DNA of 64,000 nucleotides from Clostridia bacterium (GTDB lineage Bacteria; Bacillota; Clostridia; Christensenellales; UBA1242): positions 1-64,000 of the forward strand of contig JAQVWL010000002.1 of assembly GCA_028709705.1 (NCBI GenBank), given 5' to 3'. Shown here one piece after another: positions 19,162 through 32,240 of this stretch (positions within the stretch are counted from its first letter, which is position 1; the number at the start of each line of letters is the position of its first letter). The notes beneath the pieces are model-generated. The model saw only the letters and a list, made by a program, of their open reading frames with translations, ran no database searches and had not been told where the DNA came from. The position numbers and the translations under genes are program-made.

Positions 19162-19353
19162 ATGAGTAGAGTATGTGATATTTGTGGAAAAAGCAGAATG
19201 GCGGGGAAAACTGTTAGTCATGCAAACAACAAATCAAACCGTTCTTATGAAGTAAATTTACAAGAAACAACAATAATAGTTGATGGAAAAGAAAAAAAAG
19301 TTAAGGCTTGCACAAAATGTATTAAAACCCTAAATAAAAAAACAGCAAAATAA
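19162..19353 (+). CDS. rpmB: 50S ribosomal protein L28
   Basis: MSRVCDICGKSRMAGKTVSHANNKSNR…; AAGGAGAG RBS. Confidence 0.96.
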   Translation: MSRVCDICGKSRMAGKTVSHANNKSNRSYEVNLQETTIIVDGKEKKVKACTKCIKTLNKKTAK

Positions 19354-19410
19354 AGTGATTAAAATCGGCACAAACAGTGTCGATTTTTTTTATGTAACGG
19401 GGCGGATTGA

Positions 19411-19518
19411 GTGTGCCCGATGGCACACGTGATGAGCGGGCTATTGCCCGCATTATGAGCACGCTCCGCGTGCGTGATGTAAATGCTAACGCATTTATGA
19501 TGAGTGTGCTCCGCACAC
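19411..19518 (+). repeat. Hairpin array A: five short hairpins, ~23-nt period, (A/G)TGATGA(G) linkers
   Basis: GTGTGCC-CGAT-GGCACAC; GCGGGC-TATT-GCCCGC; GCACGC-TCC-GCGTGC; AAATGC-TAAC-GCATTT; GTGTGC-TCC-GCACAC. Confidence 0.9.
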
Positions 19519-19601
19519 ATTAATGCGTGGGACTGACCCAAAAAGTTTTTTGTTTTTTTGAATAATTTTTTACTAACAAATTTTAAAAACAAAACCACAA
19601 T

Positions 19602-19709
19602 GCGTGCCTTTGGCACGCTCATCATGCACGCATTAGCGGGCTCATCACGCGGGCAATAGCCCGCACATCATGGGTGCGTTAGCACTCTCGTCATGTGGGC
19701 TCCGCAAAC
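19602..19709 (-). repeat. Hairpin array B: same design, inverted relative to A
   Basis: GCGTGCC-TTT-GGCACGC; GCACGC-ATTA-GCGGGC; GCGGGC-AATA-GCCCGC; GGGTGC-GTTA-GCACTC; GTGGGC-TCC-GCAAAC, linkers TCATCAT/TCATCAC. Confidence 0.88.
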
Positions 19710-19950
19710 TCACTCTTACTGAATAACCTTTTTGGCAAAAAACAATTTCAAAAATCTTGCCAAAATCTTTGGTGCTTTAAAGCAAATAATTTTCATTATG
19801 TATCTCCTATTAAAGCATATTCATTATCCCGCATTGTTGTGAAAAAGGGGCGGGGGGGGCGGAGCGATGCCCCAAATTCTGCGGGGCAATCACTTCCGCC
19901 CCGCACTTTTGTAGTAAACAGTTTTGGTTCAGTTTGATTTTTTAGCAAGG

Positions 19951-20370
19951 GTCAACGGGGACGGTAGTAACTGACACGGGAGCGTTAGCGTAGGGTCAGT
20001 TGACTACGTCCCCTTGACTTGTTTTTTGTAATACAATCTGATAAAAATTCTTGGAACAATTGCTTTCAAAAAAAGTACGGGCAAAACCGCCAACGCAGTG
20101 CGGTTTTCGTTTGGCCCGTAAAAGCAAAAACTTGCCTGATAAAGCGATGCTTTTTTGTGAAACAAAAAACAAGCACAAAGGCAAGTTTTTGCGTGTGTCA
20201 AGGGGACGTAGCCAACATGACTCTAGGGCTTCGCCCTTCGCGTCAGTTGCTAGCGTCCCCGCTGACCCTTGACCTTTTTTTTCGTACTATCCCGTTTTCG
20301 TGTCAAGGGGACGTAGCACTCCTTGACCGTTCGCCTTCGGCTCCTGTCAATTGCCACGTCCCCGTTGACA
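19951..20370 (+). repeat. Nested-palindrome element, left copy
   Basis: REP-like units GTCAACGGGGACG…GTCCCC(T/G)TTGAC around TACGGGC/GCCCGTA and GCAAAAACTTGCC/GGCAAGTTTTTGC hairpins; inverted homologue at 22963-23277. Confidence 0.9.
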
Positions 20371-22735: not shown

Positions 22736-22845
22736 GTGGGCTTCCGCCCCACATGATGAGAGCACTTCGTGCTCGTGATGAGTGTGCCATCGGCACACAT
22801 GATGAGCCCGCTAACGCGTGCATGATGAGCGTGCCAAAGGCACGC
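22736..22845 (+). repeat. Hairpin array C: five hairpins with ATGATGAG linkers; inverted homologue of array B and its flank
   Basis: GTGGG-CTTCCGC-CCCAC; GAGCAC-TTC-GTGCTC; GTGTGCC-ATC-GGCACAC; GCCCGC-TAAC-GCGTGC; GCGTGCC-AAA-GGCACGC followed by ATTGTGGT…TTTAAAATTTGTTA, as in reverse complement of array B flank. Confidence 0.9.
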
Positions 22846-22962
22846 ATTGTGGTATTATATTTAAAATTTGTTAAGCGTAGCGAAGGTAAACGGGGACGCT
22901 AGCAACTGACACGAGCGGGCGAAAAGCAAGGGTCAACGGAGACGTAGCAAGGGGCAACGCGG

Positions 22963-23277
22963 GTCAACGGGGACGCTAGCAATTGACAGGAGCCGTAGGC
23001 GAACGGTCAAGGGTGCTACGTCCCCTTGACACACGCAAAAACTAGCCCTTGTGCTTGTTTTTTGTTTCACAAAAAAGCATCGCTTTAACGGGCAAGTTTT
23101 TGCTTTTACGGACCAAGCGGAAACCGCATTTCATTGGCGGTTTTGTCCGTACTTTTTTTTGAAAGCAGTTGTTCCAAGAATTATTATCAAATTGTAGTAC
23201 GAAAAACAGGTCAAGGGGACGTAGTCAACGTGACCCTACGCTAACCCTTCGTGTCAGTTACTACCGTCCCCGTTGAC
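22963..23277 (-). repeat. Nested-palindrome element, right inverted copy
   Basis: Reverse complement aligns to 19951-20370 along most of its length. Confidence 0.9.
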
Positions 23278-24127
23278 TTACACTACCACATTTCAAGTTT
23301 TTGTAAATTGCTTGGTATCTTTCATACCTTGAAAAATCTATTTGCCCGCTTTCTACTGCTTTTTTTATTCCGCAGTCTTGTTCGTTTGTGTGAGTGCAAG
23401 ATTTATATTTACAGTTTTTTAAAAACTCTAAAAAATCGGGGTAATAATACGGCAATTCCCAATATTCTATTGGCAAAAGTTTTTCATCTAAACTGCTAAA
23501 CCCGGGTGTGTCGGCAATATAAGAATTTGGTTCAAACTCGAATAACTCGCAGTGCCTTGTGGTGTTTTTTCCCCTTGATATTTTGGTTGACAACATACCT
23601 TCAAGTGTTTTTTTGTTGCCAAACAAAGCATTCAAAAGCGCGGACTTGCCAACACCTGACTGCCCCGCAAACGCCGATATTTTGTTTTTTAATAATAGTT
23701 TAATGTTTTCCAAATTGATTGTTTTGTGTGCAGAAACAAATACGGTTTTGTAAAACTTGCCATACACGCTTTCAATATATTGCTCAAATTTTGTGCTTTT
23801 GTCTATCTTGGTATAACAAATAATTGGAGTGATATCATACACCTTGCAGAACAAAAGCAATTTGTCAAGCATTAAAAAGTCTGGCTGGGGTTTGTCTGCT
23901 ACCAGTACAAAAAGTTGGTCAAGATTGACAAGTGGCGGTCTTATTAATTGATTTTTTCTTGACAAAACTTTTTCAATATTCATTGTTTGTGTGTTAAACT
24001 CGACATTTTCGCCAACAAAAATGCCATTTGATTTTAAAATACCCTTTGCAGTACAAACAAAAAGATTTTGGGCAGTTTTTACCCAAAACTTGTCAGACAT
24101 TTTTTTTGTTATCAAGCCTTTTTCCAT
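23261..24127 (-). CDS. rsgA: Small ribosomal subunit biogenesis GTPase RsgA
   Basis: AGQSGVGKSALLNAL P-loop, circularly permuted GTPase order, CKYKSCTHTNEQDCGIKKAVESGQI zinc region. Confidence 0.95.
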   Translation of the reverse strand: MEKGLITKKMSDKFWVKTAQNLFVCTAKGILKSNGIFVGENVEFNTQTMNIEKVLSRKNQLIRPPLVNLDQLFVLVADKPQPDFLMLDKLLLFCKVYDITPIICYTKIDKSTKFEQYIESVYGKFYKTVFVSAHKTINLENIKLLLKNKISAFAGQSGVGKSALLNALFGNKKTLEGMLSTKISRGKNTTRHCELFEFEPNSYIADTPGFSSLDEKLLPIEYWELPYYYPDFLEFLKNCKYKSCTHTNEQDCGIKKAVESGQIDFSRYERYQAIYKNLKCGSVSQRGR

Positions 24128-30041: not shown

Positions 30042-32240
30042 TTATAGTTTTTTTAGTGGAGCAATTTCAAGCATTAAAGTTTTTACTCCAATGTCATTAA
30101 AATCAATATCGGCAGTTTTGCTTTCAAAATCTATATCCAAAATTTTGCCAATGCCAAATTTTGTGTGTAAAACGGAATCTCCTTTGTGATATAAATTGAT
30201 ATCAATTTTGGGTTTGTTTTGATTTAAAAACTGGTTATATGTTGAGGTATTTATTGCACTTTTTACAAAGTCAACTTGTGCGTTTGTTTTGCGAGTTGTG
30301 GTATTATTTGCAACGCTAATTGTTGCTCCTTTGTTAGTATAACCCAATTCGCCCAAAAACCTGCTTGGCATCATATAATCTCTATGACCATACAAAAATC
30401 TTGTTTTGCAATTACAAAAAAACAATCTTTCTTTTGCACGAGTTATTCCAACATACAAAAGTCTTCTTTCTTCTTCCATTTGCTCTTCATTGCCAAAAGA
30501 CCTTGAAATTGGGAATATTTTTTCTTCAAGCCCTACCAAAAACACGCATTTAAACTCCAAGCCTTTTACAGAGTGTACAGTTGCAACAATTGCGTTGTTA
30601 GTTTCATCAAGGGTGTCAATATCACTTATCAAAGAAACGCTTTGAAGATAATCATTTAATGTGTCTTGCGGATTTTTTGTTGCATAAGTTTGAATTGAAT
30701 ACAAAAGTTGGTCTATATTAAGCATTTTATCCATATCTTCTTCTGTTTTGTTTGGATAAGCTGACTTTATAGAAAAATACTTTACTATATTTTCAGCAAA
30801 TTCATTTAGCGGTGTCAACTCATATTCGGCATACAGTTTTTTATAAATTTCAGAAAAACTATTAATTTTATTTGTTATACTGTTTGGCAATTCAAAATTG
30901 TTTATTTTAAGACAAATATCAAGCAAGTAAGTCTGTTCCCTTTCGGCAATTTCTCTTATTTTTGCAATCGCACTATCGCCTATTCCACGCTTTGGAAAAT
31001 TAATTACCCGCAAAAATGCTTGCTCATCTTTGGGATTGATAAAAACTTTTAAATAAGATAAAACATTTTTTACTTCAACTCTGTCATAAAACTTAAACCC
31101 ACCAAAAACTTTGTGTGGAATATTGTATGAAAGCAACTTTTCTTCAAATTGAAAGGTAAGTGCATTTAGTCTTAACAAAATTGCAAAATCTTTATATTCA
31201 TAACCACAATTGTTAACCAAATAATGAATTGTGTTGGAAACATAGTCCGCTTCGGCTTGCTCGTCATAAAGTTCTTTTCTTTCTATTGGATACGCACCAT
31301 CAATATCACTCCAAAGAGTTTTGTCAATTCTGCTTTTATTGTTTTTTATCAATTTGTTGGCACAATCTAAAATGATTTTTGTTGAACGATAATTTCTTTC
31401 CAACTTGTATACTTTTACATTTTCAAAATCTTTTTTAAAGTTTGAAATGTTCTTAAAGTTTGCACCACGCCAAGTGTAAATACATTGGTCCTCATCACCC
31501 ACCACAAAAATATTTTTGTGTTTACTGCAAAGGAGTTTAACCAAGTCATATTGAATAATGTTTGTGTCTTGAAACTCATCAACTAAAACATATTGAAAAC
31601 GATTGGCATAATATTCTAAAACTTCTTTGTTGCAATATAAAAGTTTGTAAGTTTGAACGAGTAAATCATCAAAGTCAAGTGCATTATTTTCAACCAAATT
31701 TGTTTGATATTCTTTTATAATCGAAACAATCAACTCAATATCTTTTTCAAAAGCAAAGTCTTGAATATAACTTTCATATTTATAATTATTGTTTTTAAAA
31801 TTTGAAATATGGAACTTTACTGTTTTTTTAAAATTTTCATCAATAATATCTTTTTTTGTAAAAATATTTTTCAAAACTTTGTCTGTGTCGTTATCGGAAT
31901 ATATAGAAAAATTGCTATTAAATCTTACATCAAGTTTGTTAATATTAAGTCTTAAAATTTTTGCACACATAGAGTGAAAAGTTGAAATCCAAACCCTATC
32001 GCCTTTTTCCGTCATTGCAACAACTCGCTCTTTCATTTCGCCCGCGGCTTTGTTTGTAAAAGTAATTGCCAAAATATTTTCAGGACTTACACCCAAATTT
32101 TCTATCAAAAAAACAATTCTGTTTGTCAACAATCTTGTTTTTCCACTTCCTGCTCCTGCCGTAACCAAAACAGCACCTTGTGTTTGTTTAAGTGCTTCTA
32201 ATTGTTCATTATTCAATAAACTTAAATCTTTTTCTGTCAT
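30042..32240 (-). CDS. pcrA: UvrD/PcrA-family DNA helicase
   Basis: VTAGAGSGKTRLLTNRI, DEFQDTN, GDEDQCIYTWRGA, VHSVKGLEFKCVFLVGLEE. Confidence 0.95.
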   Translation of the reverse strand: MTEKDLSLLNNEQLEALKQTQGAVLVTAGAGSGKTRLLTNRIVFLIENLGVSPENILAITFTNKAAGEMKERVVAMTEKGDRVWISTFHSMCAKILRLNINKLDVRFNSNFSIYSDNDTDKVLKNIFTKKDIIDENFKKTVKFHISNFKNNNYKYESYIQDFAFEKDIELIVSIIKEYQTNLVENNALDFDDLLVQTYKLLYCNKEVLEYYANRFQYVLVDEFQDTNIIQYDLVKLLCSKHKNIFVVGDEDQCIYTWRGANFKNISNFKKDFENVKVYKLERNYRSTKIILDCANKLIKNNKSRIDKTLWSDIDGAYPIERKELYDEQAEADYVSNTIHYLVNNCGYEYKDFAILLRLNALTFQFEEKLLSYNIPHKVFGGFKFYDRVEVKNVLSYLKVFINPKDEQAFLRVINFPKRGIGDSAIAKIREIAEREQTYLLDICLKINNFELPNSITNKINSFSEIYKKLYAEYELTPLNEFAENIVKYFSIKSAYPNKTEEDMDKMLNIDQLLYSIQTYATKNPQDTLNDYLQSVSLISDIDTLDETNNAIVATVHSVKGLEFKCVFLVGLEEKIFPISRSFGNEEQMEEERRLLYVGITRAKERLFFCNCKTRFLYGHRDYMMPSRFLGELGYTNKGATISVANNTTTRKTNAQVDFVKSAINTSTYNQFLNQNKPKIDINLYHKGDSVLHTKFGIGKILDIDFESKTADIDFNDIGVKTLMLEIAPLKKL

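Follow-up and report, generated by a model that had tools for sequence, protein, structure and literature searches.

The window, by which we mean the whole stretch of 64,000 nucleotides analysed, contains three arrays of variable hairpins separated by a seven-nucleotide linker. Two of these (A1 and A2) are inverted with respect to each other and are separated by a gap of 83 bp, and the third (A3) lies further along the window. The elements of the locus are as follows.

19162 to 19353, + strand: small gene 5' of A1, read from its sequence as a putative ribosomal protein L28 gene (rpmB)
19361 to 19390: inverted repeat directly before A1, terminator hairpin of the putative rpmB
19411 to 19518, + strand: array A1, five hairpins (19411-19428, 19436-19451, 19459-19473, 19481-19496, 19504-19518) with a period of 22-25 nt, separated in order by GTGATGA, ATTATGA, GTGATGT and ATGATGA
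19519 to 19540, + strand: inner boundary of A1, ATTAATGCGTGGGACTGACCC(A), found with small changes in A1, A4, A5, A6 and A8
19541 to 19594, no strand: centre between A1 and A2, delimited from the sequence
19595 to 19601, - strand: ATTGTGG, last linker of A2
19602 to 19709, - strand: array A2, five hairpins (19602-19618, 19626-19641, 19649-19664, 19672-19687, 19695-19709), with linkers reading TCATCAT, TCATCAC, ACATCAT and TCGTCAT on the + strand (ATGATGA, GTGATGA, ATGATGT and ATGACGA on the - strand)
22736 to 22852, + strand: array A3, five hairpins (22736-22752, 22760-22774, 22782-22798, 22806-22821, 22829-22845) ending in ATTGTGG

An earlier note on this DNA had described five hairpins per array with a second, inverted array of five nearby, and the coordinates confirm this layout; both arrays that it reported are real, although it missed the third at 22736-22852, whose final two hairpins are those of A2 with one base different. 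Its near-constant (A/G)TGATGA linker holds as a consensus (R-TGATGA) from which individual linkers have drifted, and a few of the A2 hairpins are imperfect. Taken together, the inverted A1 and A2 form terminal inverted repeats of the kind found in miniature inverted-repeat elements (MITEs).

When the window was simulated 200 times and the local segment 5000 times by a first-order Markov process, no run gave three consecutive perfect hairpins at a period of 20-26 nt, and the RNA fold of positions 19396-19725 has a z-score of -11. Covariation was assessed in 31 different hairpin units from seven arrays of the genome against 500 shuffles. Paired cells account for 93.5% of the stems (73.9% shuffled), double-change cells number 40 (10 shuffled), and the stem covariation score of 0.543 (0.164 shuffled) was reached by 0/500 shuffles, which bears out the description of the stems as different in sequence yet self-complementary and covarying. 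The RTGATGA arrays are found to alternate an RTGAWDW-type heptad with variable hairpins, as seen in these 31 covarying units. The stem sequences vary, as had been noted, but not freely: the vocabulary is small, with 16 distinct 6+6 stems among 35 units, and several hairpins reappear in other arrays. Mismatches in the stems comprise 25 G-T and 17 A-C (P = 0.28) and show no strand bias, so that neither RNA nor DNA is favoured as the working form.

About nine RTGATGA arrays were found in the 0.92-Mb genome, mostly directly 3' of stop codons or terminators. A1 follows the terminator of the small ribosomal-protein gene, A4 and A5 lie immediately 3' of stop codons, and A6 and A7 are found after terminators. 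A9, located behind leuS, is a compact inverted pair with a GC stem and a T-run at its end, and has GTGATAA as a variant heptad in one half and the complement TTATCAC in the other. Most of the copies are single arrays. Their inner ends fall into two kinds, ATTAATGCGTGGGACYGACC (A1, A4, A5, A6 and A8, with small changes) and ATTRTGG (A2, A3 and A7); a parent 4HB element flanked by RTGATGA arrays would be expected to have ATTRTGG and CGGGTCAGTCCCACGCATTAAT as its inner ends. Reading the edges by eye demonstrated neither a target-site duplication nor an empty site. A DNA query found no RTGATGA arrays in seven genomes of the same genus, and scanning sampled relatives de novo for chains of hairpins returned only a few, which were unconvincing. 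Neither an rRNA match in the window scan nor an S23p open reading frame beside the window arrays was found.

Other repeats were observed in the window. A second dispersed, MITE-like repeat with inverted ends like GGTCAACGGGGACGCTAGTAACTGAC recurs next to hairpin arrays, occurring at 19949-20018, 20197-20266, 20302-20369 and about 22890-23280 as well as beside A4, A5 and A8. A third repeat, GGGCGGAGCGATTGCCCCAAATTCTGCGGGGCAAATCACTTCCGCCC, recurs between the array and the GGTCAACGGGG repeat, being present at about 19843-19910 and beside A4 (L010) and A8 (L582). Separately, positions 30403-30498 on the - strand match Rfam n00280, a C. difficile sRNA inside a helicase gene, barely above the gathering score.

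Exact TGATGAG-triplet scans of genome and viral collections yielded, among the matches listed, mostly coding Asp-Glu repeats and one useful locus (L134). At L134, hairpins separated by ATGATAT words form two inverted arrays behind a tRNA terminator, and its genome holds 17 pattern matches at about ten loci. A class-wide search identified ATGATAT arrays in eight further genomes from eight families. Variable hairpins with a constant heptad were found to recur in many families of Clostridia with ATGATAT, GCTAAAT, GTGAAGT and more as the heptad, each element having its own. The usual form elsewhere is that of two inverted arrays forming a 'zipper', with three or four hairpin units per arm compared to the five of the window arrays. 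In one genome (G171), two elements have closely similar hairpins, but the heptads are GTGATGT/ACATCAC in the first element and GTGAAGT/ACTTCAC in the second, every word of both arms having changed in concert.

In the consensus fold of eleven GCTAAAT elements, the left heptads are paired with the right heptads and the hairpins protrude, giving a chain of four-way junctions. Compensatory changes occur in 17 of its 59 pairs, although the heptads are nearly invariant in this set and the heptad pairing itself, the zipper, is therefore not tested by it. As read from the sequences, the 3' arm of the first hairpin occurs a second time at the centre, where it offers the 5' arm another possible partner. 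By eye, the GCTAAAT array is the leader of a gene and follows a promoter-like sequence.

This gene encodes a PF05635 four-helix-bundle protein (4HB), also called S23p or 23S-rRNA intervening-sequence protein, and a gene of this family adjoins several of the arrays found in other genomes. We scanned for zippers without regard to the heptad sequence: any constant word was accepted, provided that hairpins lay between its copies and that the arrays were inverted. The 67 sampled 4HB loci (274 kb) contain 26 zippers; all 26 lie 5' of the gene at a distance of no more than ~170 bp, and one overlaps the gene envelope. Control DNA has one zipper in 351 kb of the same genomes and three in 3.0 Mb of other DNA; against this pooled control (four in 3.35 Mb), the enrichment has a Poisson P of about 1e-40. 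The scan leaves 41 of the 67 loci without a zipper, partly from layouts that are invisible to it, and it does not call A1-A2, whose inverted heptads have drifted. No zippers were found at the top-scoring PF05635 matches (set B); in G317, four copies of 3.2 kb that are almost identical resemble rRNA operons, as judged by size and identity only.

PF05635 is present in 112 of the 391 genomes of the class, and in seven of the nine array-bearing genomes against 105 of the other 382 (Fisher P = 0.003). It is absent from G001, G006 and G007 and present in the genus mates G002 and G005. When 49 4HB proteins were placed in a tree and labelled by heptad, 19 label changes were counted, with a minimum of 16 and 34.8 after shuffling; the heptad tracks the 4HB phylogeny and not the host family. 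Invariant polar residues of the family are the Q, R, S, N and E of QxxRSxTSIGANxxE, and each entry of its solved relatives, 2rld and 2gsc, contains five chains. To our knowledge, no catalytic activity has been described for PF05635. PADLOC and PHROGs hold no family for 4HB, and the association of arrays with 4HB was not found in the open-access literature.

The single PF05635 gene of the present genome (L423, contig C27, about 1498-1791) lies beside the tmRNA gene and has its own ATGCAAT zipper, and no PF05635 gene is found near the RTGATGA arrays. The reading frame of this single gene ends short of the conserved C-terminal helix, the residues of which appear to continue in another frame. In family f1, reading by eye showed 4HB genes flanked by tandem heptads without hairpins (such as TTTTCAC, ATGAATA, ATTAGCA and AATGATG repeats; L534, L536, L537, L541, L544, L545, L547, L552 and L553), and these may form a bridge to the simple heptamer repeats of other bacteria. 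At two further loci, the 3' end of the upstream gene takes part in the hairpin that precedes the array, in palindromes of 17 bp (L431) and 10 bp (L425) that span the stop codon, as if insertion had reverse-copied the flank.

Units of array and 4HB gene are shared between host families. Those of the GCTAAAT type (540-650 bp) share 81-93% identity across host families, with L472 as the most distant member at about 75%, and their flanks mostly do not align between host families. Three loci of one genome (G331) represent different states of such a unit. L426 has the left array, the 4HB gene and the right array; the gene is absent from L395, where both arms (84% and 85%) and the first 4HB codons are retained; and L402 has the left arm only. 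L395 is a MITE-like internal deletion, and the relation of L426 to L395 and L402 is that of autonomous and non-autonomous copies among transposons and MITEs. The ATGCAAT array of the 4HB gene in the present genome likewise has two copies without 4HB, at 84% identity, near A7 and A8.

By analogy, the window parallels G331, with A2-A1 as a candidate for both arms around a short centre and with A3 and A7 as probable lone left arms. The last linker of A2, ATTGTGG, matches in position the ATTATGG of L426 that contains the 4HB start codon, and the same holds for ATTRTGG in A2, A3 and A7 against L426, L395 and L402; we give this match moderate weight because the motif is short. Read on the - strand from A2 to A1, the centre can be interpreted from L426 and L395 as replacing the position of the 4HB gene in the relatives.

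We consider that the window arrays are probably non-autonomous, MITE-like copies of a small mobile element that carries the PF05635 4HB as its sole gene, with a probability of roughly two in three. Direct support comes from the design and its multiplicity, the covariation, the adjacency to 4HB, the shared phylogeny of heptad and 4HB, the sharp-edged shared units of ~600 bp and the internal-deletion derivative elsewhere, whereas the membership of the RTGATGA arrays, the binding by 4HB and the chemistry of mobility are parts that we infer. As a 4HB gene with RTGATGA heptads, and with it a parent element, was not found in the genomes compared, which are mostly metagenome assemblies, membership rests on the design, the type of heptad, the boundary motif and the genomic parallels. 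Since PF05635 does not adjoin the RTGATGA arrays, it is also by inference that they are called non-autonomous copies.

The constant linkers and covarying stems had earlier been taken as a sign of selection for a string of hairpins. A recurrent string with its pairing kept is indeed what was found, but host selection is not required for it, and a mobile element explains the pattern better. The principal alternative is that the arrays are cis-acting RNA or DNA structures of the host (3'-end protectors, terminators, insulators or regulators) under host selection, with 4HB recruited as a regulator and no mobility. Their position immediately 3' of stop codons or terminators and ahead of promoters, the terminator-like end of A9 behind leuS (GC stem and T-run), the GCTAAAT arrays that form a 5' leader behind a promoter-like sequence, and the covariation of stems and heptads would all fit such a role. 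We nevertheless regard it as unlikely, as the arrays occur patchily within the genus and in several unrelated copies per genome, the genes that flank them share no class, and units of ~600 bp are common to host families with unrelated flanks and include internally deleted copies. A by-product of mutation, in which quasi-palindrome correction or template switching makes palindromes that have no function, would account for near-perfect stems with rare mismatches that lack strand bias, and the limited stem vocabulary does suggest copying between units. Invariant heptads, the coherent two-arm switch from GTGATGT/ACATCAC to GTGAAGT/ACTTCAC and the adjacency to one gene family are left unexplained by this process, and we hold it to be very improbable.

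The earlier note had suggested a search for a linker-recognising transposase. This pointed in the right direction: a specific gene does accompany the design, although it belongs to PF05635 and is not a known transposase. REP/BIME-type palindromes moved by a Y1 (RAYT-like) transposase share with the arrays an intergenic, multi-copy, hairpin-based occurrence in direct and inverted orientation. The Y1 family (PF01797) is absent from this genome and from G099, the stems differ between copies, the constant part is a 7-nt linker, and the neighbouring gene is PF05635, which together leave this reading next to no probability. Mobilization of array RNA in trans by a reverse transcriptase of the group II intron or DGR type, with 4HB acting like Avd, is suggested by two likenesses: Avd of the diversity-generating retroelements is a pentameric four-helix-bundle protein, and group IIC introns insert next to terminators. 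No reverse transcriptase (RVT_1, PF00078) was detected in this genome or in 14 of the 18 array or 4HB genomes tested, and we judge it highly unlikely that one is involved. Two other readings were rejected. For CRISPR, the repeated part would be just 7 nt long, with palindromes as 'spacers'; and RUGAUGA resembles the snoRNA C box, a resemblance that the heptads of the other elements do not fit.

The non-autonomous 4HB element was further compared with named systems, as the note had known of no named feature with this design. That statement has to be qualified, because half-arrays with other heptads match Gut-1 and heptamers precede S23p in a Coxiella intervening sequence (PMC4990558). Gut-1 RNA (Rfam RF01706) was described from gut metagenomes and has had no function assigned since 2010 (Weinberg et al. 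2010, PMC2864571). Nine Gut-1 matches above the gathering score, at eight separate places (L387 and L427 are the same locus), lie in or overlap hairpin zippers with the heptads ATGATAT and TGAAAT (overlap at L432, L392, L490, L427, L312, L315 and L405); Gut-1 therefore appears to be one half of such elements, and unlike the full zipper it covers just one half of some. The window arrays gave no match to Gut-1 even at E-values up to 1 and stayed below its 50-bit gathering threshold, and no match was found for GCTAAAT, GTGAAGT, ATGCAAT or other tested arrays of this genome.

With the 23S rRNA intervening sequences (IVSs), related arrays have in common an adjoining gene of the same protein family (PF05635, TIGR02436). 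The Coxiella IVS has tandem GACAGAT heptamers before the S23p start codon, and the relative Xcc0516 is described as a toroidal homopentamer (PMC4990558). IVSs lie inside 23S rRNA with no hairpin arrays described, whereas the window arrays are intergenic, without such an open reading frame beside them, and do not combine an insertion in 23S rRNA with S23p. The TAACTGA heptamers that occur as direct repeats in Beggiatoaceae, Cyanobacteria and Bacteroidetes are intergenic, patchy and often just before start codons, and a mobile binding protein was proposed for them as a possibility (PMC4679880). They look analogous to the arrays in being intergenic heptamers of patchy distribution, but their heptad is another one, there are no hairpins between, and a term search of PMC4679880 found no 4HB gene. 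MITEs and REP/BIME repeats resemble the arrays in being short, multi-copy, non-autonomous, inverted and intergenic; the arrays differ from them in their heptad-hairpin ends, in having no Y1 transposase in the genome and in that no target duplication was seen.

We propose that the linker would be the heptad word of the element (RTGATGA here; ATGATAT, GCTAAAT and GTGAAGT in others), each heptad being followed by a hairpin in which pairing but not sequence is kept, and that a full element would consist of two inverted arrays. As the arrays are inverted, the left heptads are complementary to the right ones, which would allow a strand to zip up as a succession of four-way junctions from which the hairpins protrude. 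Read on the - strand, A2 to A1 would then represent a left array, a start-codon remnant, a deleted gene and a right array, and A3 a lone left array. The 4HB protein, whose solved relatives are pentameric rings, may bind the heptad-hairpin units of DNA or RNA, which would let the element, and copies without 4HB in trans, settle beside stop codons, terminators and promoters. The match between the five units of each window array and the five subunits of the ring is curious but does not count as evidence.

More tentatively, and at well under even odds, 4HB rings may be the mobility proteins of a distinct class of bacterial mobile element that depends on no known transposase and on no reverse transcriptase. 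Each ring would read its own heptad in a hairpin zipper, insert the element by gene ends or promoters and move arrays without 4HB in trans, with Gut-1, the heptamer repeats and the rRNA intervening sequences as facets of the same system. If this is true, three orphans, namely the PF05635/S23p family, Gut-1 RNA and the unexplained heptamer repeats, would have one home, and the movement of S23p intervening sequences would become directly testable, as one small protein and one short word would be available in many natural pairs.
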